From: Spinacia oleracea
Lineage: Eukaryota; Streptophyta; Magnoliopsida; Caryophyllales; Amaranthaceae
Direction of reading: 5' to 3'
Assembly (NCBI RefSeq): GCF_020520425.1
Contig: NC_079491.1
Span: 3,720,001-3,784,000, forward strand
Length of the DNA stretch: 64,000 nucleotides
Every line of letters starts with the position of its first letter. Position 1 is the first letter of the stretch. A model generated the notes under the pieces. That model had not been told where the DNA came from and made no database searches. It was given only the letters and a program-made list of their open reading frames with translations. Of the stretch, positions 4,452 through 56,657 are shown piece by piece. Position numbers and translations under genes: made by a program.

Positions 4452-5410
4452 TTATTTTCTCCTCATTGTCCTCCTCCTTCCAAAGGTCTCCATAAACCAT
4501 TCATGGTACTTGTCAGTGATGTAAATTTTCCCAATAACAAAGCCAACTATGGTTCCACATATACAGCCCAGCGATTTGATGATCCAATCAATCAGTTCCG
4601 AATCCTCATCCTCGCTCTTGTCACTATGCACTGATGGCGGTGACAGTGGTATAACATCTTCATTTCTGCACTTCTGGTAAATTAGACTTCCACACAATCC
4701 TGGGTTTCCTTGGAAAGAGGTATCATCAAAAGTATTGAATTGGTTTCCTTGTGGTATTGGGCCCACGAGATGATCATTAAAGGAGATGTTGAACACCTCG
4801 AGAGTTGTCAATTGTGATAATGCTGGAGGGATTTCACCTGAGAGTTTGTTGAGAGAAAGGTCAAGTGACTCAAGTTCTGTTATGTTGGATAGAGAAGGTG
4901 GGATTCTGCCTTCAAGATTGTTGTTGGACAAGTTGAGTGCTTGTAGTCCCTTTAGATCCCCAATGCCATCGGGAATTCTGCCTGTGAAGTTGTTACTGGA
5001 TAAGTCAATGACCCTAAACACTTTAAGTATCTTTGGATAAATAATTTCACTGCCTTTGTTTGTTATGGTGATGGAGTACTCGAAATTCTGTGTAGAAATA
5101 ACATAGTCTACTCCCAACTTAAAATAGAAAGTAATCAAGGTATTGTATGAACCTGATTGTTCTTCCTTTGAAACTTTCATTGCATGCCAATTTTGAAAGT
5201 ACCTAGAGGGTAAACAACCTGTATGAAGATTGTGGGACAGGTCAATAATGCGCAAGAATCGGAAACCGAGGTCATATTTCTGATATAGTACGCTTCCGTG
5301 AAATTTATTATGCCCCAGGACAAGAACTTGCAACTTTGGGAGACTTCCTAACAATGATGGAAAAGAATCATTAATTTGATTTCTTCCAACATCAAGTACT
5401 TCAAGCATTG
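4452..5410 (-). pseudogene. Receptor-like protein gene, 3' half only (RLP copy 2)
   Basis: The minus strand encodes the C-terminal ~320 residues of an RLP, very close to the end of the intact gene at 12909-15893. It has terminal LRRs from NCTMLEVLDVGRNQIND onward, the island segment FEYSITITNKGSE, the last LRRs, an acidic juxtamembrane stretch (SEDEDSELIDW), a transmembrane helix with GxxxG spacing (CGTIVGFVIGKIY) and a short basic tail. The whole N-terminal ectodomain is missing: at about 5410 it meets another RLP 3' half head to head on the opposite strand. The remaining frame is open, so it could still be transcribed, but it cannot be a normal receptor. Confidence 0.85.
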
Positions 5411-6350
5411 TGCAGTTGGGAAGAAATCGTATTAATGACACTTTTCCATCATGGTTAGGAAGTCTTCCCAATTTGCAAGTTCTTGTGCTGAAGCATAACA
5501 ACTTCCACGGGAGGATAACATCCCTGTTGCCCAGTCGTATTTTTCAAAGCTTGCGAATTATTGATTTGTCTTATAATTTTCATACTGGTAACTTACCTTC
5601 AAGGTATCTTCAAAGTTGGCATGCGATGGAAATTTCAACCGAAGACATGTCTACTTCTTCCAACTCTGATTTTCGAATAAGTATTACTTTTAATGATGGC
5701 AACACTGAGTATGCACATGTGTTATATGAATACAGTATCACCATAACAAATAAGGGGAGCGAAACAAATTACAACAAGATATTGAAAGCATTCAGAGTAA
5801 TTGATTTTTCAAGCAACAAGTTCACTGGTGGAATCCCTAAAATCATTGGAAAGCTTAAGGGCCGGGCCTTCAGGCACTTAATTTATCCAATAACAACTTT
5901 GTTGGTGATATCCCATCTTCTCAAAACATGCTTTCAGGAGTGATCCCTTGGGAGTTGACAAGGCTAACATTTCTTGAAATTCTCGACGTTTCACACAATC
6001 GTCTTGTTGGTCCAATCCCTGTAGGAAAACACTTCAATACTTTTGACAACGATTCCTTTGATGGGAACCTCGCGTTATGCGGAGCTCCATTGTCTGAAAA
6101 GTGCGAGAAACACTCCACGCCATCATCAATACAAGAGTTAGCAAATGATGAGATGACTGAAGAAGACACCAAGTTGATTGATTGGGTCATTAGATCATTG
6201 GGGTGTGTAACTGGGCTTATAATAGGCTATATAATTGGGAAAATCTACATAACTGATAGGTATCATGATTGGTTCATAGAGACTTTTGGAAGAAGAGGAA
6301 GGTCTAAGACACGAGTGAAGAGATCAACACAAAGGCTCAGGAGAAACTGA
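5411..6350 (+). pseudogene. Receptor-like protein gene, 3' half, frameshifted (RLP copy 3)
   Basis: The plus strand starts abruptly at LGRNRINDTFPSWLGSLP, the same LRR at which copy 2 begins on the other strand. It continues through SITITNKGSE and VIDFSSNKFTGGIP. Near 5860 the sequence gggccgggcc looks like a 5-bp duplication that shifts the frame. The frame resumes at 5928-6350 with HNRLVGPIPVGKHF, the acidic stretch, a transmembrane helix (GLIIGYIIGKIY) and a basic tail. About one LRR is missing between the two parts. It is a different paralogue from copy 2. Confidence 0.85.
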
Positions 6351-12853: not shown

Positions 12854-12908
12854 CAAATCCTTATTTATCCTTTTTTCTATAAGTTTGCACCACAATAACA
12901 CTACATTC

Positions 12909-15893
12909 ATGGGTTTTCTTACATGGATTGACATTCTTTTCTTAGTCCTGGTATGTTCACATGCCACAAAACAAATTATCTTTGTATCCTCTTTTCGGCC
13001 ATCATGTGCTGATCATGAAAGAATGGCGTTAGTGCAATTTAGGCGGAGTTTCCTTACAAACTGTGCTATTTCCGATACTCCATCTGAATATCCAAGGGTG
13101 AAATCATGGTCAAGTGAGAAAAATGAGGATTGCTGTTTGTGGGATGGAGTCGAGTGCGAGGTAGAAACTGGTTATGTGACAGGGCTCGACCTAGGTGGCA
13201 GCTGTCTTTATGGAAACTTTCCTCCTAACAGCACTCTCTTCAGTCTTACTCATCTTAAAAAGCTTAGCCTAGCTTTTAATGATTTCAACTATTCTCACAT
13301 CCCTTCTAAAATCGGGGAAATTAACAAGCTACAAAGTCTTAACCTCTCGTATTCATCATTTAGTGGCCAAATACCATCAGAAATCTCAAAATTATCAGAG
13401 CTCCGTGTGCTCGATCTTTCCAACAATGGTGATTCTTTAGCTAATAGCCAACGTGGCCTGAAACTTCATGATCCAAGCCTGGAGAAGTTGCTTCGAAACC
13501 TAACTCATATTAGTCAACTCTATCTTGACATGGTGGACTTGTCTTCTACTGTGCCAATCACCCTCACAAAACTATCCTCTTTAAAAGCTATTTCCCTCCA
13601 AAACTGTAACTTGTATGGTGAACTACCAACAAGTCTTTTCAGATTGCCACAACTTGAGATCCTTCATTTGAGTGGCAACAAAGATCTTGCAGGATTCTTG
13701 CCTGAATTTCACTCGAATAGCCCTCTCAAGGAATTACATCTTTATGGCACATCATTTTCAGGAAAAGTGCCACAGTCGATAGGAAACCTTGCTCATTTGG
13801 AACAACTTGACCTATGTGGTTGTTATTTCTCAGGATCACTTCCATCTTCTCTTGCTAATATGACAACACTCACCGTCTTACTCTTAAGTAACAACAATTT
13901 CAAAGGTGAAGTTTCCTTCTCTATCACAAATCTCACAAACCTCGAATCTTTAGATTTCTCAAATCTTGAAATTAGGCCAAGAGAACTATTTTCCCAGTTG
14001 TCCAAACTAAACAATATCATTTACCTACGCCTTGCTGAGATGAAACTAGCTACTGAGATACCGTCGTTTATTGCAAACTTCACGAAACTTACTTATTTAG
14101 ATCTTGCAGGATCCCAGATAATGGGTCCATTTCCAAAATGGTTTGCAAATCTAACCCAACTAAGGCAATTGTATCTCGAGAATAATCAGTTAGAGGGTCC
14201 AATACCACATTGGTTTTCTCAGTTTACTAATCTTCAATCTCTAGACTTGTCTTACAACAACTTGTTTGGCAAGTTCGACACCTTTTTCCAGTTAAAAGAT
14301 CTTCGTAATCTAGTTTTATCTCATGTCAACCTAACATTTCCAAATTCTGGGACCAATTCATCTCTTCCAAAGCTCAAACTCTTAGAACTTGCATACTGCA
14401 ACCTGACTGAGTTTCCACAGTTCCTGCAGTATCAAAATGAGCTACAATCGCTATCACTCAGAGGAAATAACATCAAGGGTATTTTGCCACAGTGGTTGGT
14501 GAATATAACTAAAGAGAGTCTCCTTATAATTAATCTTTCCGGAAATAAGTTGACAGGTTTTGAACAGGCTACAGTAGTTCTTCCATGGACTCATTTGGAA
14601 GAATTTCATTTCGCGGGTAATAAGTTACACGGACTACTTCCTTCACCACCAGATTCTATGAAGTTCTACGATGTCTCAAATAATAAGTTGACTGGAGTAA
14701 TGCCCAAGCAAATTTGCAATGCAAGGTCACTAATTTCCCTTGACTTGTCTGGTAACAACTTGACAGGACAGATACCAGATTGCATAGGTAATCAGCTAGG
14801 TGAATCTCTACAACTTCTGAATTTGCGAGGAAATAATCTCCATGGCACCATTTCCACAAAATTTACAACATCCTGCAAACTAAGGATGATCAATTTGAGT
14901 CAAAATCAACTGGGAGGTGAGCTTCCAAGGTCATTTGCCAACTGCACAATGCTTGAAGTACTTGATGTTGGAAGAAATCAAATTAATGATTCTTTTCCAT
15001 CATGGTTAGGAAGTCTCCCGAAGTTGCAAGTTCTTATCCTGGGGCATAATAAATTTTACGGAAGAGTACTATATCAGAAATCTGACCTCAGTTTCCGATT
15101 CTTGCGCATTATTGACCTATCCCACAATCTTCATACAGGTGGTTTACCCTCTAGGTACTTTCAAAATTGGCATGCAATGAAAGTTTCAAAGGAAGAACAA
15201 TCAGGTTCATACAATACCTTGATTACTTTCTATTTTAAGTTGGGAGTAGACTATGTTATTTCTCAACAGAATTTCGAGTACTCCATCACCATAACAAACA
15301 AAGGCAGTGAAATTCTTTATCCAAAGATACTTAAAGTGTTTAGGGTCATTGACTTATCCAGTAACAACTTCACAGGCAGGATTCCCGATGACATTGGGGA
15401 TCTCAAGGGACTACAAGCACTCAACTTGTCCAACAACAATCTTGAAGGCAGAATTCCACCCTCTCTATCCAACATAACAGACCTTGAATCACTCGACCTT
15501 TCTCTCAACAAACTCTCAGGTGAAATCCCTCCATCATTATCACAATTGACCACTCTCGAGGTGTTCAACATCTCCTATAATGATCATCTCATGGGCCCAA
15601 TACCACAAGGAAACCAATTCAATACTTTCGATGATACCTCTTTCCAAGGAAATCCAGGGTTGTGTGGAAGTCTAATTTCCCAGAAGTGCGGAAATGCAGA
15701 TATTATACAACTGTCACCACCATCAGTGAATAGTGACAAGAGCGATGATGAGGATTCTGAACTGATTGATTGGATCATCAAATCACTGGGATGTATAAGT
15801 GGAACCATAGTTGGGTTTGTTATTGGGAAAATTTACATCACTGACAAGTACCATGAATGGTTTATGGAGACCTTTGGAAGGAGGAGAACATAA
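12909..15893 (+). CDS. Receptor-like protein (Cf-9/RLP class), intact
   Basis: This single-exon gene encodes 994 residues. I chose the ATG at 12909 because a signal peptide follows at once (FLTWIDILFLVLVCS). Order: signal peptide (1-~28); LRR N-cap with CADHERMALVQF and DCCLWDGVEC (~34-85); about 28 extracytoplasmic LRRs of the LxxLxxLxLSxNxxxGxIP type; an island with FEYSITITNKGSE about 170 residues from the end; final LRRs; a C-cap (NPGLCGSLISQKC); an acidic stretch SDDEDSELIDW; one transmembrane helix with GxxxGxxxG (GTIVGFVIG); and a ~20-residue tail without kinase. Family members sit in the plasma membrane, recognise apoplastic pathogen molecules or cell damage and signal through SOBIR1, which contacts the GxxxG helix. 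The ligand here is unknown. It is the only full copy in a cluster with several broken ones, typical of birth-and-death evolution of resistance genes. Confidence 0.95.
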   Translation: MGFLTWIDILFLVLVCSHATKQIIFVSSFRPSCADHERMALVQFRRSFLTNCAISDTPSEYPRVKSWSSEKNEDCCLWDGVECEVETGYVTGLDLGGSCLYGNFPPNSTLFSLTHLKKLSLAFNDFNYSHIPSKIGEINKLQSLNLSYSSFSGQIPSEISKLSELRVLDLSNNGDSLANSQRGLKLHDPSLEKLLRNLTHISQLYLDMVDLSSTVPITLTKLSSLKAISLQNCNLYGELPTSLFRLPQLEILHLSGNKDLAGFLPEFHSNSPLKELHLYGTSFSGKVPQSIGNLAHLEQLDLCGCYFSGSLPSSLANMTTLTVLLLSNNNFKGEVSFSITNLTNLESLDFSNLEIRPRELFSQLSKLNNIIYLRLAEMKLATEIPSFIANFTKLTYLDLAGSQIMGPFPKWFANLTQLRQLYLENNQLEGPIPHWFSQFTNLQSLDLSYNNLFGKFDTFFQLKDLRNLVLSHVNLTFPNSGTNSSLPKLKLLELAYCNLTEFPQFLQYQNELQSLSLRGNNIKGILPQWLVNITKESLLIINLSGNKLTGFEQATVVLPWTHLEEFHFAGNKLHGLLPSPPDSMKFYDVSNNKLTGVMPKQICNARSLISLDLSGNNLTGQIPDCIGNQLGESLQLLNLRGNNLHGTISTKFTTSCKLRMINLSQNQLGGELPRSFANCTMLEVLDVGRNQINDSFPSWLGSLPKLQVLILGHNKFYGRVLYQKSDLSFRFLRIIDLSHNLHTGGLPSRYFQNWHAMKVSKEEQSGSYNTLITFYFKLGVDYVISQQNFEYSITITNKGSEILYPKILKVFRVIDLSSNNFTGRIPDDIGDLKGLQALNLSNNNLEGRIPPSLSNITDLESLDLSLNKLSGEIPPSLSQLTTLEVFNISYNDHLMGPIPQGNQFNTFDDTSFQGNPGLCGSLISQKCGNADIIQLSPPSVNSDKSDDEDSELIDWIIKSLGCISGTIVGFVIGKIYITDKYHEWFMETFGRRRT

Positions 15894-22385: not shown

Positions 22386-25300
22386 TCAGTCACCTCTAGT
22401 GTGAGGCTGCACACATCCACAAAAGTGAGTCTTCTTCCGCCTGCGCGGAGTCCGTGAACCACCATACAGATAATCCCGTAACAGTACACGTGTATTCCTC
22501 TCGGTTACTCGGGTCCCACTTTTCCCTACTTTGTTACTATTATCAAGTTTCATCATCACAAACTGTAATTTCTGCACTTCAATCTGCAACCTTCCAATCT
22601 TCTCTGAAATCCTCCTTGCTTGTTCCAAACACCTCCTCCTCTTACTACCATTCCCACCACCACCTTCTGACGAATCCGCCGTAACCGACCCGTCAAAAGA
22701 CGACGCTGTTGAAGAAGAAGACGACTTCTCGATGTTCTTCATTAACTTCGCGCTGTATTCAAACAACTTCAAGATTGTAGTCTCACTTTCCAGGAGTTGT
22801 TCCTTCACACCATCACATTCAACAACACCTTTACCTTTGTTGCTGGAATCAGTCATTTCCATCTTTGTTTTCAGATCTTGAACTGTTATTTGCAAGTTAG
22901 TTAGTTTCTGAACATCAGAAGCAAGCCTTTCTAAGGTCTTCCTCTTGTTACCATCATCTTCTTCCTCGGGATTATTGATAAACCTCTTTTTTGAGATTAA
23001 TTGTTGATCATCAACTCTCAATTCCTTTTCCACCAACATTGATGATTCTGTTGAAGGTCTACCACTTCTGCTCTCTTTTACAGAGTCAAGATTGGAAATT
23101 ACTCTGCATGGTTTTCCCACTGTAAGGTCAATGCTGCCTTGTTGGTCAATGGTTTCCCATAACTCGAGAATCTGATCATCTGACCCTGATATAACTCTTC
23201 TGTTTTTGCCATATGATGAACAATCTGATACCTGATCAAGCATTATGTCTTTCATCAGAAGCTCCTCCTCTGGAGGTGACACGTCAGCGCTTGTTTTCCG
23301 AGGCCTACTTAGTCTTCCACTTCCACGGCGTGAGATTTTTAGTGCCTCGATTTGTCGTAATGCCGAGTCTAGCTCGGAACGGACACCGGAGTTTTCCTCC
23401 TCTGCTTGCTGTTTTAGCTCTATAACTAGCTTTTCCACATCTTGGACTTTAGCCTGGATATCATGCAAGTTTACAAATGCAGCTGTTTGATCTTCACTCA
23501 AGTTTTGACTGTTTTCAACACCCTGTAAATACATAAAAATGTAAGTGGCAATTCAACAACATGACAGCTTTGTATATCTCTCAATTTTTATTTTTATTTT
23601 GACAATGGAAAATCTTAGAAAATAAAAAGATTGAAGTGTAGCAGCAGTTCTTCATTGATGCAATGTGCACTGAATATTGACATGTTATCATGGATTAAAA
23701 AAAAGTTTAAGAAAAGGTAGATGAAGACTTGAAATGGAGATTAGTGGTAGTCTGGTAGACAAACTTCCACTAACAAATATATTCCCTGTATAATCAAAAC
23801 ACATACTCATATGTGACATTGGATTCTCACAAATTAGAAGGTGCACCCGGTTGTATGTAGTTCTACATGCAACCGGGTTAAAAACAGATTTTTTTTTATG
23901 GCTTAAAAGCACATTTTACCTATTTAATAACACATTTTAACGATTTAAAGCACATTAACGATTTAAAAGCACATACTTATATATCTTCCGTTTCTTTTAC
24001 TTACAACACTTTTTTTTTCATATGTAACAATATATGTGCTTTTAATTTTGTAAATATGTGTTTTTCAGTGGTTAAAAGTATAAAAAGAACCGGTTACATG
24101 TAGTTCTACATGCAACCGGGTGTACCTTCTACCAATTGATTCTTTCTGCAACGACCCTATTTCCATAACAATCCACACTCATGCATGAACCATCACAACA
24201 TATTTTCCAATCTTTCAACTATTTGCAAGACAATGCAACCTTTGAAAACCTTAAACAAATAAAATTTGAAAAGTAGAATGCAGTACCTCTTTCTCTTCAT
24301 TGTCAGTTGTATTAATCTTCTTGTGCCAATTAGCATGTTTCTCAAGAGATAACAAAGAATCCTTCAGAGACATAATGGTAGAGAGATCTGCAGCCAAACG
24401 AGCCTTTATTTCAGAATTTTCACCTTCCAAACTCCCAACTCTTTCTTTCAACTGAACAACATCCACACATTTGGAATTACATTCTTCTTCGAGGATCTCA
24501 TACGCTTTCAAAAGCTCTGAAAACTTTTCCTTAATCAATGCTTCACGGAAACTCGAGCTTTGCAGCTCGGTGAAAAATGTTCCTGCCACAGTCTCCCATA
24601 ACTTGACCTCGTCTTTTCCCTTCTGCAACTCTGAGGTCAGAATTCGTATTCTAGCCTCACTTTCTTCGTGTTTTTTCTGCATTTTGGAAATCTGTGAATC
24701 TAGATTCTCGATAAGTTCATGAAGCTCTTCACATTCTTTAAGTTGCTCATCATTTACAGTTCTCACTTCTTTCAGTTCATTCTCTGACTTCTTCAACGAA
24801 AGCTCAAAATTCATGTTTTTACACCGCGCATCTTCCAAACTCCTCTCTACAATTTGCACTTTCTCCTCAAGGGTAATGTTGTCATTGCAAAGCTTTTCTA
24901 TATTCGAACTCAACTCTTGAACTTTCTTTGATTTCTCAGATATGACTTTCTTGAAAATAAATGACAGATTTTCCAGAACAACTACCTCCCCAACCATACA
25001 AGAGCACTCATCTTCTAGGTTGTGTTTCTCCTCCTCCAAATTCTCATACGCCTTCATCAAAGTTCCCTTTTCCTCAATAACCTTACAATTCTCTTTCTGT
25101 AAATCCTCATAAGCAACCTGGAGATTAAACAGCATTTCTCGGAGTTCTTCCATTTCAGTGAGAAGAACAACTTCTTTCTCACCTCCTTCCCTAACTTTCA
25201 GAATCAACTCTTCATTACTTTCTAGAAGCTTCTGTAAATCTTTCTGGAGTACTGTAACTTCACCATTCCTGCTCTCAGCTTCCAGTCTGAGTGTGTGGAT

Positions 25301-28300
25301 AACAGCATTCAATTCTGCTACATCTTGTTTAAGCTGCCAAATCATTGAAAGAAAAACAGATTTCTGGATAACGAGTTCTTGATTTTCATCCCATGATTTA
25401 TACAGAGATGTTTTTATATGATCGAGTTTTTCAAGTATCAGGTTAACAACTCTTTGATCCTCCTCATTGCCGTAGTAGTCACCACCTACTGAACAACCTG
25501 CATCAGATTCAAGTGCATCTAACAAATGAAAAATCCCCATTCTCAACCCTTGAACTTGACCAGACAACACTTGAACTTCATCCTGTTTATCAAGACTCTC
25601 CTTTTCCAGTTCAGAAATAAGCTTCTCTGACAATTTGGATGCTTCCAGAAGTTTATCAGAGTATTTCAGCAATGAAGAATTGTTATCTTTCTGATCTTGT
25701 ATACACTTTTTTAAGATGAAGATATCAAACTGAGCATTCACAGCTTTATCTAATTCTTCTTCAAATTTCTCCCTCATATGATCACCCGCCTCTTCAAGAA
25801 CATGAACCTGGTTTTCCAAATCAGCCATTCGGGTCTTATTCAACTGATTCGAGTTACCGTGTTCTTGCTTTTCAGTATCTAAGCATATCTGAAGTTCTTG
25901 CACCATCTTGAGTGTGGATTCTCTCTCTTCCTCCATACCCGTGAATCTCTGCTCTAATTCTGCATGTGTTTTCCCGAGTTCTTCCAACTTACAGTGCATT
26001 GTTTCTAACTCAGACGTTAAAGCTAGTTTCTCCGTCATAAGGGCCATATTTTGGTCATCAAGCATCTTGCATGAATCTTCAAAGTGTTTAGATTTTACCT
26101 TCAACATTTCAAGTTCGGCATTGGCATCGAAAAGAGAGTTCTCCAAGAAAGTGTTGTGTTCAGAAAGTTTCTCTAGATTCTCAGTTGTAATCTGCAACTG
26201 AGATATCAGAAAACCTTTCTCAGCAACAAGTGTAGACTTCTCACCTAGAAGAAACTGGAAAGATTGCTCCAACTCCTTTACCCTCTTTCTCGCAACTTCT
26301 AACTCCACCTTCAAGCTCGACATTGAATTCTCCAGAAACTCGTTCTTTTCAACAAGTTTTTCCATTACCAGAAGCTTCTCGTTCACAGTAGCTAAGCTAT
26401 CTTTGAGTTCTGAGTTCTCATCCTTCATCTCTTTCACAGATGAAGCAAAAGATTCTGAATCAGATTGGTGTTTCTGGGTCAGACTATTGAATTCCTCCTT
26501 CAAACATAAAATTTCTTGCTGAAGAGAATTCCTCTGATCAATCTTAACCTCGAGTTCTTGTTCCAGATTCCCTTTTCCCTCCTTCAACTCAAAGATCATT
26601 TCTTCCATGCTTCTTATTGATACAAATGAGGAATGGTTAAGCTCATTGAGGCTCTTGTTTTCATCTTTTACCTTCTGAACTTCATCTTCAAAACTCTGCT
26701 TCTGTTTTTCAAGATCCTTCAAAAGTTGAACATTCTTATGAAGGTCAACAGCAACAGACTTAAGCTCCTCCTGGACTTTTGCATGCGTATTCTGGAGTTT
26801 CTCGAAAGCAGATTCGGTCTCCATAAAACGCATCCGTTCTTCCTGCACACATGTCCAAAGTCTACCTAATTCCTTCTGCTTCTCACATAACTCCTGATCT
26901 TGAACATCCACTTTCTGTTCTAAAGATTTCACTACCAACTGCAAAGAATCATTTGACTTATCCAGCAAGAAGCACTGTTCTTCACTTCCCTTTAACTTAG
27001 CAACCCCATCTTCAACCTCAGCTTTGAGCCTTTCAGCTTCTTCCTGAATGAGAACAATTTCACGTTCTAAAGTCGCTATCTTTTCCAAACATTGCTCGTG
27101 TTTAAGAACAGCAACCTCCTTTTCTTCAGTTAATCTGGTTATTGTCTCCCTTAAATATTCAACTTCCTTTTCAGCTAAATCAGCTCTTTCACTAGTTCTA
27201 CTGGCATAGTCCTCAGCTAACAATAACTTGTTCTCCAAGTTAGCTAACTTCTCCAAACACTCCATATACTTAACAAGAAGACCTTCTTTTTCTGCTTTCA
27301 ATACCTCAGATTCTGTTTCTGCTTTCTCCAAGTTGGATACCCTACCTAAACATTGCTGATACTGAAGTAAACAAGCTTCCCTTTCAGCTTCAACTTTTTG
27401 CAGGGATTCCTTCAAACATTGAACTTGAGCTTCGGCTTTGCTTGCTCGTTCAATGAATCCTTGAGAATCCTCCTTTGCTTGAGAAACTTCAGACTCAAGT
27501 TTCGACAATCTTTCAACAGTCTGCTGATACTGATGAACACCAGCTTCTTTCTCATCTTCTAGTTTAACAAGGGCTTCTTTTAAAGCTTGAATGTCAACTT
27601 CAGATCTTCCTAATCTCTCAGATTCAGACAAATTAGCATTATTCTCAAAAATATGCTTCTCAATCTTTTTCACGATTTCTCTCTCCTCCGCTTCTTGAAA
27701 ATTCAGGCCTTTTCTTGCTTTCCCTAACCCGTTCAGTTGCTTCGATCCCTTTCTTCCAGCTAGAGTATCAGCTTCACCTGTGAAATTCCCATTTGATGAA
27801 GATAGACCCATTGCACCCTTCTGTAATTCAACGGGATCAAGTGAAGCCCGTGCAGGAGCCTGTAATTCGGGTGTACGGGGGCCCGAATCATTATTAGTTC
27901 CATTCACAGGCCCGTCATCAGTCATAAGGAACGGGACTTGGTTAGGAAATGCTTCTGCCATTGTTGTATGTGCCTGGCGAATTACCCCCGTAGCATGATC
28001 ATATCTTTCAGCTAAAGCACGGTACGCACGGTAAAACTCCTCAACTAATTTCATTAGCTCGGGACGTTTCTTATAATACATTTCAGCTCGCCTTGCAAAA
28101 GAGTCTTCATCTACTTCAATGAGCTTTATCATTGTTTTCACTTTGCTATCCATATCTACAGGAAAGAAATTGCGGGAGTTAAGTAACATAGGCCATAGCT
28201 AGGAAAAAGGAATTCAAAACAACTTTTTCCAGTTTAGTAAGGACAGAATTTGTGTGAAGATTAAGCATTGAGATGCTATTACTATAATTCCATATTCAGA

Positions 28301-33133: not shown

Positions 33134-34582
33134 GGGGGCATTTGGTTGGGGGTTTTCAGGAAAGGGAAAGGGAATGATGGGGTTTCATTCCATTTGTTGT
33201 TGTTTGTAATTATTAATTATTAATTATTAATTATTAATTATTAATTATTAATTATTAATTATTAATTATTAATTATTAATTATTAATTATTAATTATTAA
33301 TTATTAATTAATAATTAATTAATAATTAATAATTAATAATTAATAATTAATAATTAATAATTAATAATTAATAATTAATAATTAATAATTAATAATTAAT
33401 AATTAATAATTAATAATTAATAATTAATAATTAATAATTAATAATTAATAATTAATAATTAATAATTAATAATTAATCATTAATAATTAATAATTAATAA
33501 TTAATAATTAATAATTAATAATTAATAATTAATAATTAATAATTAATAATAATTAATAATTAATAACTAATAACTAATAACTAATAATTAATAACTAATA
33601 ACTAATAACTAATAACTAATAATTAATAATTAATAATAATAATTAATAATTAATAATTAATAATTAATAATTAATAATTAATAACTAATAATTAATAATT
33701 AATAATTAATAATTAATAATTAATAACTAATAATTAATAATTAATAATTAATAATTAATAATTAATAATTTATAATTAATAATTAATAATTAATAATTAA
33801 TAATTAATAATTAATAATTAATAATTAATAATTAATAATTAATAATTAATAATTAATAATTAATAATTAATAATTAATAATTAATAATTAATAAATAATT
33901 AATAACTAATAATTAATAATTAATAATTAATAATTAATAAATAATAATTAATAACTAATAATTAATAATTAATAATTAATAATTAATAATTAATAATTAA
34001 TAATTAATAATTAATAAATAATTAATAACTAATAATTAATAATTAATAATTAATAATTAATAAATAATAATTAATAACTAATAATTAATAATTAATAATT
34101 AATAATTAATAATTAATAACTGGTAACTAATAACTAGTAATTAATAATTACTAATTAATACTTAATAATTAATACTTAATAATTAATAAATTAATACTTA
34201 ATAATTAATAAATTAATACTTAATAATTAATAAATAATTAATTAATTAATAATTAATAATTAGTAATTAGTAATTAATATAAAAAATGAATAATAAATAA
34301 TAAATAATTAGTAATTAATAATAAATAATGAATATTAAATAATAAATAATTAATAATTAATAATCAATAAATAATAATAAATAATTAGTAATAAATAATA
34401 AATAATAAATATTTATTATTTATTTATTTATTATTTATTATTTATTATCTTACTTAGGAGAGAGAGAGGGGAGAAGAATGGACAAACCAAACAACATTCT
34501 TAAACATAGGGTTTTCATTCCATTCTCCTTGATTCTCATTCTCATTCTCATTCCCTTTCCCCTTCTCCAACCAAACGGCCCC
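33134..34582. mobile_element. Tourist-like element containing a giant heptamer array
   Basis: The inverted ends gggggcatttggttgg and ccaaccaaacggcccc are flanked by TAA at 33131-33133 and 34583-34585. Subterminal gggaaagggaatga and tcattccctttcccc also pair. Nearly all of the interior is the TTAATTA-type array described separately. No coding capacity. Confidence 0.8.
33207..34430. repeat. AT-only heptamer array with strand switch
   Basis: 33207 to about 33305 is a run of ATTAATT units. At about 33307 it turns into the reverse complement AATTAAT and continues for some 800 bases, then decays into ataaat and ttaataa variants to about 34430. The array is almost pure A and T. Confidence 0.9.

Positions 34583-51085: not shown

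Positions 51086-51129
<44 letters not shown>
51086..51129 (-). repeat. (TAA)n tract at the 3' end of the retroelement
   Basis: A run of about 14 TAA units on the minus strand directly follows the end of the element. It may be target, tail or both. Confidence 0.9.
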
Positions 51130-51180
51130 GGGAAAACACCAAAACGTTACAAGCTTAACAAGCTACAAAGATCAAATGAA

Positions 51181-54100
51181 CTACAAGAAGTTGGAGGGGA
51201 GCCGAGATACAATCTGGGCCCCCACTCCTCTAGCTATGGCGAACCCGATCCTGCTGAAAATGTGGGCAGCTGCCCGCGCCCCAATGTCTTGAGCCGTGGA
51301 GTACGTCTGGACCCGCTTCAGCAAAGAAACAGCCCCTTTCTCTAATTCCCCAAAAGAAGAGAAGGAAAAAGGAAAGAAACCGTAACCCAAAGCCCTACAA
51401 CGTGCCCCATACTTATCCTGCTTCCGCTGCGCTGCAACCGCCACAACCCGACCCGGAACGAAGCCTGACAACCCAGATTGCGTCATAGGGGAAGACCCAG
51501 TCAAGTCAACACACACATCCAGACCGCCATCCCATGAGTAAAGCAGTATATCTGCAGGACGAAGAGCTCCATCACTCTCACTAGTCAGCCCAACATCAAC
51601 CTCCTTGCGAGCAGAAATCCCCGACCGATAGCAAATATCCAAAAGGGTATCACGAACAACATTATGTCGATGTTTGATACCCACAATCCCAGCACAAGAC
51701 ACGGCATGATCCCCATAAATGTCCCCGTCGAAAACCCGAGAGCAAGCAGAACACGGCGTCGAATAAGAGAACAACGGAATACCCAACCGATAGCAAAGAA
51801 CCGAACGATAAGTCTTACCGTTCATAGTCTGGCCTAACCCCGAGATGGGGACTGCCCGCAACCAAGCCGTGGAGCAACCCCCCTGCTGTGATTTCCATAG
51901 GGCAACAAGACGCGAAGATAAGGAGTAGGCGGATTCCGCATCAGCAGTAACCTTCGTGAAATATATGTCTGCCAATTTCTTCATGAGTCTGGGGGCAGCG
52001 ATCTCACTAGGGCTACGCATAAGGTCGGTCTCCACAGTCCTATTGAAAAGACCAAGAGCATCGCCAAAGGCTGGTCCCGGACCATCAACACCTGAAAGCC
52101 GAAGAAGCGAATCCTGCAAATCAGAAGACTGCAAACGGGATGCAAGAAAAGCATAATGCCGAACATCACCAGCTGAATAAACACCCAATCCTCCATAAGA
52201 ATAAGGCAAGGTGGAAAGGCGCCATTGCCAGTCACCGAACCCAGGTCCCGAAGCAGTCACGATGCGCTCTAAAGAAGCCCGCAGAGCCACATCAAAGGAT
52301 AATTGGGCCGCTTCGAAAAGATGAGGCGGACAAGTGCGCATAGCAAAGTAGAGTTTAGAAACTCCAGTACACGCACGAAGAAGCAACAACTCACACTGGG
52401 GATCATTAAGCTTGGCTACAGCATCCATCAACACAACAGCCTTCGACACACGCTGCGAAACCAACTCCTTACAAAAAGAGGAATCCGTACTGACTGGGCC
52501 ACCAAGCAACTTAACACCAAGCGCAGGACGAGCAATATCCGTAGGAAAGACACCCTCTAGACGACTGCGGGGGTCCTCCGAAGGCCAGAAAACCTCCGTC
52601 TTCTCAACATTAACATGGAGACCTAAATGAGGACCCTCCTCCAAAATCAACTCCAAGACCTGTCCAACCACCAAAGTGTCACCAACGATAGTGCCATCGT
52701 CCAAGTACCAAGCCTGAAGAGATAGATCAAATGAGTCTCTGATTCGACACACCAATGGATGTAGAACCAGAGAAAAAAGCAAAGGGCCGAGAGGATCCCC
52801 TTGCTGCACACCTTGACAAGACCACAAGGTATGCTCCCCATAATACAGCCGCGCTGGAGAAGAGTAGCAGAATTCAACCCAACGCGAAAGAGCAGGACAA
52901 TGTAGTCGTACCTCACGCAACAAAGCCGAACGATTGACTAAATTGAACGCATTCCGAAAATCCACCAATAACATAGAGAGGCCAACATCAGCCCCACGAG
53001 CCTCAACCAACCGATTGACAGCATGGAGAATGGCCTCACCACCTGCTGGAACCCCAACTCCAAACTGAAGACCTCCAAAGTAGTTTCCTAAACGCGGACC
53101 AACCAAAGCTGCCCCGACCTTAGAAACAAGGCGCCTCCAAATAGTGCCCACGGCAATAGGCCGAATACCCCCACCAGGCTTAATAAGTGGCGTAAGAGGA
53201 GCACTAGCAATGTATCCTCCAAGCTCAGCAGGACACTTTCCAGCAAGAAAGAGATTAACAACCTGAGTGATAGCATCCACCAACTCATCAGAAACACCTA
53301 CAGCAGCACCACCCAAGCAATCCAAAAGGTGTTGAGCACGCAAGCCATCTCTACCGCACGAAGTACCACGCGGAAAGCCCATAATCTGCTCCAAAACAAC
53401 AGCGGAGGAAGCAATAAGGTGATGATCAACAGGGATATCCGGTAAGGTAGGGACCGGAACGGAAGGGTGCTTTGCTTGCAAATCTGCAAGAGTAGCATCA
53501 TTGTAAGGGGCAAGACCTGAGGAAGAAAGAACCCTAACGGCAGCAGTGTAGTGACCGTCAGAAATCTTTCTCTTGCATTGCTTAATATTACGTTCCGCCA
53601 AATCACGGTCGCCGTCAACATCCAATAGAGGGGGAGACACACTAGCCAATGTGTCTATGACAAGTTGCTCAGAACCACCAGGCACACCCCAAGAACGAAT
53701 AGCAGAGGTGATACTCTCTTCCTGTTGTCGCCGCCTAACACCGGAGGAACACTCACGATTACTTCGTGGAGAAAAAGTCTTGAGGACACAAAGAGGTAAC
53801 ACGAGCAACTGAACCCAACAAGCGATGTCATCTGGTCTGCAAATCACCTTATCAAGCGCCCCTTTCAGAACTCGCGAAAAACCCAAACGACATTTGGGAG
53901 GGATGGATTTCACAGAACGCAGCCGCTTGGACCATAAAGTGTTTAGAAGAGCAACATCAAAAGAAAAATGATGTTCTCGAGGCGCAACAGAAGTAGGCAG
54001 CTCGGAAGCAGGAGCTTGTGGTTTTTGAATACCGTAGAGAGTAAAACGAATAGTACCATCCCCAGAATCAGGTGGGTCCACAAAAACCGTACTAGAACCA

Positions 54101-54372
54101 CTGCCATGTCGACACCTAATACGATGAGTATGCGTCTTGAAACAATCTCCACATAGCCAAATTCCCATACGACGAAAGGTCACCTCAGCAGTAGTAAAAA
54201 CCTGCAAATTGGTAGTAAGGGAATGACGGGTTACATCCCGCACACCAGTGCAACAATGACGATCACGTAAGTGAGTGATCAGAGAACTCCTCACCAAACC
54301 ACGCCCACCTCCATCCTGACACCCGCTAAGACCCACAAAAGGGCAATGAAACTTCTCTACGGAAGCCGCCAT
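51181..54372 (-). CDS. Reverse transcriptase / restriction-like endonuclease protein
   Basis: One unbroken frame of 1063 residues from the ATG at 54372; numbering here counts from 23 codons upstream. C33, C41, H57 and H62 make an N-terminal C2H2 finger (FHCPFVGLSGC .. THLRDRH). The reverse transcriptase spans ~410-660: KPGGGIRPIAVGTIWRR, motif A with D494 in LLVDFRNAFN, motif B GVQQGDPLGPLLFSL, motif C YLDD at 579-582, motif D VEKTEVFW. C897, C900, H912 and C916 form a CCHC knuckle. A PD-(D/E)xK-like nuclease follows at ~925-985 (RPADILL .. DVCVDLTG). The first finger and the CCHC-nuclease pair are what R2/R4-type elements use to find and nick their target. The YLDD in place of the commoner FADD is notable. 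I recall similar unnamed proteins in other plants. All expected catalytic residues are present. Confidence 0.88.
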   Translation of the reverse strand: MAASVEKFHCPFVGLSGCQDGGGRGLVRSSLITHLRDRHCCTGVRDVTRHSLTTNLQVFTTAEVTFRRMGIWLCGDCFKTHTHRIRCRHGSGSSTVFVDPPDSGDGTIRFTLYGIQKPQAPASELPTSVAPREHHFSFDVALLNTLWSKRLRSVKSIPPKCRLGFSRVLKGALDKVICRPDDIACWVQLLVLPLCVLKTFSPRSNRECSSGVRRRQQEESITSAIRSWGVPGGSEQLVIDTLASVSPPLLDVDGDRDLAERNIKQCKRKISDGHYTAAVRVLSSSGLAPYNDATLADLQAKHPSVPVPTLPDIPVDHHLIASSAVVLEQIMGFPRGTSCGRDGLRAQHLLDCLGGAAVGVSDELVDAITQVVNLFLAGKCPAELGGYIASAPLTPLIKPGGGIRPIAVGTIWRRLVSKVGAALVGPRLGNYFGGLQFGVGVPAGGEAILHAVNRLVEARGADVGLSMLLVDFRNAFNLVNRSALLREVRLHCPALSRWVEFCYSSPARLYYGEHTLWSCQGVQQGDPLGPLLFSLVLHPLVCRIRDSFDLSLQAWYLDDGTIVGDTLVVGQVLELILEEGPHLGLHVNVEKTEVFWPSEDPRSRLEGVFPTDIARPALGVKLLGGPVSTDSSFCKELVSQRVSKAVVLMDAVAKLNDPQCELLLLRACTGVSKLYFAMRTCPPHLFEAAQLSFDVALRASLERIVTASGPGFGDWQWRLSTLPYSYGGLGVYSAGDVRHYAFLASRLQSSDLQDSLLRLSGVDGPGPAFGDALGLFNRTVETDLMRSPSEIAAPRLMKKLADIYFTKVTADAESAYSLSSRLVALWKSQQGGCSTAWLRAVPISGLGQTMNGKTYRSVLCYRLGIPLFSYSTPCSACSRVFDGDIYGDHAVSCAGIVGIKHRHNVVRDTLLDICYRSGISARKEVDVGLTSESDGALRPADILLYSWDGGLDVCVDLTGSSPMTQSGLSGFVPGRVVAVAAQRKQDKYGARCRALGYGFFPFSFSSFGELEKGAVSLLKRVQTYSTAQDIGARAAAHIFSRIGFAIARGVGAQIVSRLPSNFL

Positions 54373-54820
54373 ATCAAAGCACTTCAACAGCACACTTGAT
54401 AACCTCAACACACACCAACAATACCAACACCAAGCGCACACTTGATAACCTCAACACACACAAACAATTCCAACACCAAAGAGAAGCAACTCAAGCTTCC
54501 CAGCACCTCAACACACACAAGCAACTCAACACCAAAGAGCAGCAACTCAACACACACGAACGCAATCAAACACCAAACTCCAAAACAACCGCACAACAAC
54601 AACGCATAATCTGACCAAACTAAATGCAAGAACCTGAAACGGACTCCCGAATTGCCAGGAACTGAACCCCAAACACTCTCGAATTGCAGGAAACTGAACG
54701 CACTTGCCGGAGAAGAAACTGAACGCCAGAACTTGAAATGAACTGGAAAAAGCCTGCGAATTCCCGTCGAAACCCAAAACAGCCCGCTATCACCCGTTGA
54801 AACTGAAACCACCGACAAAA

Positions 54821-55063
54821 CACCACCCGTAACCGCCGGCAAAACAATACCGCATGCCCGTCTGATACTTGACAACCGTCGCCGGACACCACCGACAACA
54901 ACGCCGAAATCCCGTCTTTACCTTAAACAGCCTGCTATCACCCGCCTGTAACCGCCTGCAACCGCCTGTAACCGCCGGGAAAACACCACCCGTAACCGCC
55001 GACTAAACAATACCGCCTCCCCGCCTGATACTTGACAACCGTCGCTGGACACCACCACAACAA
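54821..55063 (-). repeat. Two-copy tandem repeat in the retroelement's 5' region
   Basis: caccacccgtaaccgccg and the following ~80 bases at 54821-54900 recur at 54984-55063, about 163 bp apart. Shorter accgcctgta repeats lie between. Such tandem monomers in a 5' untranslated region often carry the internal promoter. Confidence 0.7.
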
Positions 55064-55152
55064 CGCCGGTAAATCGACGTGGAAGAGCCCTAAACGCACA
55101 TGATCGAATGATCGTGCCCTAATCGCCTATTTTTGAGAGGTTTTACGTGTTT

Positions 55153-55182
55153 GTTATTACTATTATTATTATTATTATTATA
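55153..55182 (-). repeat. (TAA)n tract at the 5' side of the retroelement
   Basis: About nine TAA-type units, with one GTAATAAC variant, are in the same strand sense as the tract at the 3' end. Confidence 0.9.
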
Positions 55183-56216: not shown

Positions 56217-56657
56217 TTAGAGTTTTCAACATGAACCTCTGTTTGGTACATACTTCCATTTGAAAGTCTCTTAATGTTACTGAACAAAGATTTTGTGTAT
56301 CAGGAGCTATATATTTGTGCACGAGTCCGATGAAAACTTCGTCTGCAACAAGATCATTTTTTCTTTGATTTAAAAAATTTTGTTTGATTTAACCGCCATT
56401 TAACCATAATTTAAAAAATAAATATTTTATTGTTTGTTTTTAAAATTTCAATTATTATTGTTATTTTTATTATTATTTTGGGATATAATTTTATAAGGGT
56501 AAAATCGACTTTTCGTATTAAAAACACGGGGATATTAGCGTATGTGGGCGTCGAATAACGATACACTTTCGAAATTTGTAAAATGAAATACACTTCTTTT
56601 TTTTGGGGACTTTCCAACTATACTTCCTAAAATACAACATTTATATGTTATATTTAA

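Follow-up and report, generated by a model that had tools for sequence, protein, structure and literature searches.

Long interspersed nuclear elements (LINEs) of plants have been described as L1 and RTE types that carry apurinic/apyrimidinic (AP) endonucleases. Our searches of the open-licence PubMed Central (PMC) literature listed no report of a retrotransposon with a restriction-like endonuclease (RLE) in a flowering plant; Repbase and subscription journals lay outside this search, and the missing report is weak evidence of novelty. R2 elements enter 28S genes, and their RNAs self-cleave at the 5′ junction by means of a ribozyme resembling that of hepatitis delta virus (HDV), as stated in excerpts of PMC3774820. 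According to the same excerpts, Dong RNA was cleaved in these assays, the R4 clade is related to R2, and TAA repeats adjoin the Dong element, 7 of them being present in its upstream cleavage product. DongAg and DongBg sit in microsatellites (an excerpt of PMC3636483), and some of the HERO/Togen elements, which are also of the RLE type, have simple-repeat targets, namely (TG)n for Togen of fish (an excerpt of PMC4640811). Here we analyse an element on the minus strand of a 64,000-nucleotide stretch of Spinacia oleracea DNA (contig NC_079491.1, positions 3,720,001 to 3,784,000; the whole stretch is called the window, and all positions refer to it). We consider it reasonably probable that this element, lying between two TAA tracts at 51087-51129 and 55154-55181, is a recently active non-long-terminal-repeat (non-LTR) retrotransposon of an RLE lineage, found here in eudicots, which lands in (TAA)n microsatellites.

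The open reading frame (ORF) list of the window contains an uninterrupted minus-strand frame at 51181-54441, stop included. Translation starting at the ATG (54372) yields 1063 residues without an internal stop (coding positions 51184-54372, or 51181-54372 with the stop codon), which bears out the intact single-protein unit proposed by the first-pass annotation of this DNA. In the protein search, the product was 98% identical over 97% of its length to the Spinacia oleracea protein P0002; together with the intact frame, this match counts in favor of an element that was probably active recently. The protein combines, in this order, a zinc finger, a reverse transcriptase (RT) with a YLDD motif, a CCHC knuckle and an RLE. 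The ORF is followed by a very short 3′ untranslated region (UTR; 51130-51180), which leaves 51 nt between the stop codon and the first tract, and is preceded by a 5′ UTR of 781 nt (54373-55153). The latter holds two direct repeats of ~104 bp (54803-54906 and 54966-55068, 89% in the self-comparison) as well as a 46-bp tandem repeat at 54390-54479 (tandem repeat finder). A BLASTN comparison found no second copy of the element elsewhere in the window, and the only matches were those among its own UTR repeats and those of its TAA tracts to AT-rich stretches.

Both tracts have the same sense, as the first-pass annotation had also noticed. The 3′ tract (51087-51129) consists of 14.3 perfect TTA copies, read as TAA on the coding strand, and may represent the target repeat and/or the tail of the element. 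The 5′ tract, which begins 781 nt upstream of the ATG and likewise reads TAA on the coding strand, is perfect at 55161-55181 and with one mismatch reaches 55154. The window contains five trinucleotide tracts that are perfect over at least 15 bp; the two of AAT/ATT type among them are precisely those at the ends of the element. When the threshold was relaxed to a minimum of 21 matching bases in 24, the scan recovered both end tracts and one more at 56450-56479; all three share one sense, and the opposite sense yielded none. Elsewhere in the window, a satellite-like, AT-rich array of 1.2 kb (33207-34415) is built from ~174 copies of the 7-bp unit TAATTAA.

Conservation within the protein was assessed with an alignment of 12 members (A1) and one of 27 members (A2). 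Pfam detects a single domain, RVT_1, at residues 398-596 (52585-53181; E 1.4e-13), with the YLDD motif at residues 556-559 (52696-52707). This RT domain is present in all 27 members of A2, and a Pfam AP-endonuclease domain is absent from every one of them. The N-terminal C2H2-like finger (residues 10-39, 54256-54345) has the odd spacing CX7CX15HX4H, formed by C10, C18, H34 and H39; both histidines are invariant in A1 (12/12), the cysteines are not, and the AlphaFold model places a helix at residues 28-39. A second cluster of cysteines and histidines follows at C74, C77, H81, C87 and H89 (54106-54153), of which H81 is nearly invariant and the others are invariant in A1. The knuckle (residues 874-893, 51694-51753) has the form CX2CX11HX3C, with C877, H889 and C893 invariant and C874 nearly so in A1, and more distant plant members show CX2CX9-10HX3C. 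The pattern given for RLE LINEs in an excerpt of PMC5678591 is CX2-3CX7-8HX4C.

The C-terminal part of the protein (residues 898-1005, 51358-51681) is predicted to form the core of the RLE. An AlphaFold model built from 27 rows (mean pLDDT 82.5, pTM 0.73) contains a helix at 898-916, strands at 921-925, 940-948 and 951-960, a helix at 975-994 and a strand at 998-1005, in an order that we take to be that of the PD-(D/E)xK core. Asp-941, part of an RPAD motif, would lie in strand 940-948, Asp-956 in strand 951-960, and Lys-984 and Lys-987 in helix 975-994. These four residues are invariant in A1, as are Arg-902 and His-903, Lys-923 and Glu-924, and Arg-938. A Foldseek comparison of the model with the PDB, a check that the first-pass annotation had proposed for its nuclease, returned R2 proteins as the top seven matches (E 1.4e-21 to 5.2e-18, over 890-1070 columns), with LINE-1 behind them (E 2.8e-14); the TM-scores of 0.46-0.60 and r.m.s.d. 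of ~10-24 describe a loose fit of the whole chain. In a search of solved structures with the 12-member profile, two R2 entries lead with 49 and 48 bits, followed by turtle R2 (40 bits), by R2Bm and LINE-1, which are level at ~35, and by group II introns at no more than 29.

Comparing RLE profiles, the plant C-terminus matches that of non-plant relatives with E 1e-75, and these relatives match the R2 RLE with a probability of 97.9 (E 3e-12). One result points the other way: the direct comparison of the plant and R2 RLE profiles gave nothing significant, and the profile link to R2 therefore rests on the intermediates. Taken with the conserved motifs and the predicted fold, the assignment to the RLE-type non-LTR retroelements is well supported, and the domain set listed by the first-pass annotation (C2H2 finger, RT, knuckle and nuclease) agrees with the Pfam match, the conservation in A1 and the predicted strand order. 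Like R2 (R2Bm, R2Tg and turtle R2), the spinach protein unites a zinc finger, an RT, a CCHC linker and an RLE, and R2 proteins provide its top fold and profile matches, although R2Bm ties with LINE-1 in the profile search. It may thus work like R2. The two nevertheless differ in several respects: the spinach element adjoins TAA and not 28S sequence, its RT is distant from that of R2, and the knuckle of R2Bm reads CX3CX7HX4C.

Relatives were collected by three protein searches (394, 459 and 203 matches), and the best 120 of each were examined. The pooled set contains 316 proteins, 231 of which were assigned by similarity to the plant family and 85 of which are non-plant. Among the listed near family all named sources are eudicots: Spinacia, Silene, Papaver, Ranunculus, Trifolium, Orobanche and many Asteraceae, including Tanacetum, Tagetes, Helianthus and Cichorium. 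The listed distant relatives are mostly environmental proteins, those with names coming from Ephydatia (a sponge), Plutella (a moth), Diplonema and Closterium and hence not from flowering plants. In listed matches their RTs are 35-51% identical to that of the plant element, and several that were scanned share the CX2C...HX3C knuckle and the RHN/RHD, RPAD/RPGD and D-V-T motifs. No relative was confirmed in viral contigs, searched with the protein and with A1, or in genome contigs, covered by one scan with A1. The Diplonema relative P0313 carries the source name SLACS 132 kDa protein, which is a hint of the CRE clade only. Two Trifolium proteins, P0132 and P0140, share 65% and 80% identity with P0118; in the careful tree described below, the former nests among rows that mostly belong to Asteraceae or are unnamed. 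Horizontal transfer, old lineages or contamination might account for these observations.

A quick RT tree of 102 rows was computed with the window protein, 15 proteins chosen from the 231 of the plant family and human L1 as a single row, on which the root was drawn; 54 of these rows entered a more careful tree. Fourteen of the 96 proteins P0221-P0316 were kept out of both trees because they were near-copies, fragments or plant fusions; among the 16 plant rows, six represent environmental proteins placed with plants by similarity. In the careful tree all 16 plant rows fall into a single clade (100/99), in which all named members are eudicots, and this clade is sister to four environmental proteins (100/98). 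It sits within a large RLE group, composed mostly of environmental proteins, far from R2. The three R2 rows split off with full support (100/100), and the branch extends for 2.72 changes per column to either side of the drawn root; for this separation the program warns of long branches meeting at R2Bm. The plant clade has a support of 99 in the quick tree, where a branch with support 100 separates human L1 and R2 together from the other 98 rows, plant and non-plant. The RT therefore groups with R2 in neither tree and, as judged against the one human L1 row, does not fall inside L1, in keeping with the RLE-type placement of the first-pass annotation.

The first-pass annotation, which pointed to Dong, inferred a plant lineage of this type; might the element belong to the R4/Dong clade and have retained the TAA target of Dong? 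The kind of repeat is the same, down to the TAA repeats in the Dong cleavage product, and both are of the RLE type. The RT, however, lies with non-R2 relatives and is parted with full support from three R2 proteins, to which R4 is described as related, in trees that contained no R4, NeSL, HERO, CRE or RTE sequences. The spacing of the knuckle is unlike that published for RLE LINEs, and the host is a plant. There is also no sign of the ribozyme: the 5′ end has no Rfam match to an HDV-like ribozyme, and a home-made descriptor of unchecked sensitivity found 0 candidates near the junction, against a mean of 0.5 in 30 plain shuffles. The predicted RNA fold of the 5′ end is no better than that of shuffled sequences (z 1.43). 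We therefore judge kinship with Dong, on this indirect test, to be very improbable. Should the element indeed target TAA repeats, convergence with Dong is the preferred interpretation.

For TAA targeting by an RLE element of this separate lineage, a probable junction within a protein model provides further evidence. TAA-like repeats, when translated, would encode runs of single residues, and the 316 proteins were scanned for runs of at least 6 Asn, Ile or Tyr, at least 7 Leu or at least 8 Lys. Five runs were found, in two proteins. Four belong to the non-plant protein P0257, all within repeats of its own N-terminal region. The fifth is in P0024 of Tanacetum cinerariifolium, where the C-terminal part of one copy is followed by NDNNNNNNNNN, by ~100 residues and by the N-terminus of a second copy. 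A stretch starting a few residues past the run is 88% identical over 66 residues to Tanacetum P0035, where it likewise precedes an N-terminal part while the sequence upstream differs. The run in P0024 is therefore near the beginning of the 5′ region of an element, the boundary being approximate. As it stands in the protein sequence, it can be read as (AAT)n and would thus correspond to a TAA repeat.

An RLE element without any choice of target would have to account for both tracts differently: its RNA would end in (TAA)n, the 3′ tract would be its own tail, and the 5′ tract would reflect chance or a slightly AT-biased site. Simple-repeat tails are known in other LINEs. RTE elements were described in 2010 as generating microsatellites (PMC2887409). 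The 3′ tract is also pure and the longer of the two, as expected of a tail. On the other hand, the 5′ end adjoins a TAA tract as well, in a window otherwise free of perfect AAT/ATT tracts that reach 15 bp, and in P0024, too, a run resembling a repeat precedes a 5′ region. We regard insertion without target choice as unlikely.

Models in which copies of the element lie head to tail offer another view of where it inserts. A protein was scored as stepping back if its match to the reference, having reached a late part of the element, returned to an earlier one by a jump of more than 150 positions. This was the case for 36 of the 231 listed plant-family proteins, in which the late part of one copy is followed by an earlier part of another; with a looser rule the count was 36/231 as compared with 2/85 for non-plant proteins. 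Tanacetum is the source of 35 of the 36 and Taraxacum of one. The second copy restarts within the first 160 reference residues in 15 models. Twenty-six pairs could be tested, the remaining 10 models having no shared stretch for comparison, and in 24 of these 26 another listed copy is closer than the neighbor (pair identities 32-87%); most neighbors thus look like independent insertions. By lineage, 28 models pair A with A, three pair C with C and five pair A with B, the reference members of A and B being 51-53% identical. In addition, 11 of the 231 plant-family proteins are fused to Pfam domains that we take to be those of other transposons, a rough internal comparison. In the sponge Ephydatia, P0221 has two YxDD motifs and two knuckles in one model, and copies may be neighbors there too.

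Tandem duplication by unequal exchange, or the joining of distant sequences in gene models, would also produce head-to-tail arrangements, which would then be uninformative about the choice of insertion site. The two copies are closest to each other in P0009 and P0124 (2/26), P0068 and P0070, which both count among the 36, appear to represent near-copies of a single case, and 21 of the 36 models restart in mid-element, past reference residue 160. The 24 pairs with a closer copy elsewhere speak against this explanation, as do pair identities down to 32-41% and the five models that join different lineages, and we consider it quite unlikely as an account of the neighbors.

Insertion into TAA arrays by the spinach element and its relatives thus remains the reading that we prefer, and the targeting part of the first-pass annotation can be upheld as likely but short of proof, on the strength of a single copy seen as DNA, a junction at the protein level and clusters of diverged neighbors that come almost exclusively from one genus. 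Besides the P0009 and P0124 pairs and the restarts in mid-element, several points weigh against it. TAA flanks were read from a single DNA copy, and the imperfect TTA tract at 56450-56479 (best 22/24), ~1.3 kb from the 5′ tract, has no adjoining copy of the element, so that such tracts are not unique to element ends; both facts would suit an element without target choice. Asn can be encoded by AAT or AAC, and P0024 is a single case among 316 proteins. The Tanacetum neighbors are known from protein models, which may bridge introns and in which neighbors on opposite strands are invisible, and the 36 pairs hence indicate nearness on the same strand and not junctions. Moreover, all but one of these models come from Tanacetum, and they derive from the best 120 matches per search, the third of which favored long proteins and enriched fused models.

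Based on these observations, we propose how the element might insert. The zinc fingers and the RLE would bind a TAA array and nick its (TTA)n strand; the freed 3′ end would pair with the element RNA at its (UAA)n tail and prime reverse transcription from the short 3′ UTR. Joining of the second strand within the same array would leave TAA at both ends in one sense and restore the target, which would let a further copy enter alongside.

The window also contains other features. An ORF with a GTG start at 426-1559 on the plus strand matches Pfam DDE_Tnp_4 (E 1.3e-15) and is presumably a HARBI1-like transposase. Two leucine-rich-repeat receptor-like genes, at 4455-5501 (minus strand) and 12885-15890 (plus strand), have similar C-terminal parts. 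A KIP1-domain protein (E 4.9e-23), which we take to be of the NETWORKED type, is encoded at 24254-28189 on the minus strand.

What would these findings mean for plant retrotransposons? In the widest form of our reading, which we hold to be evenly balanced between right and wrong, eudicots carry an old, still mobile RLE group that belongs to neither R2 nor R4; TAA microsatellites would serve all of its diverged lineages as targets, its unrelated copies would stack head to tail in shared arrays, and the group would be a convergent counterpart of Dong with a self-renewing landing site. An RLE lineage across several eudicot families would change the picture of plant LINEs as L1 and RTE elements. 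If true, the preference for TAA arrays would be an independent case of microsatellite targeting, brought about by a compact plant protein with a possible ability to write DNA at a defined simple repeat.

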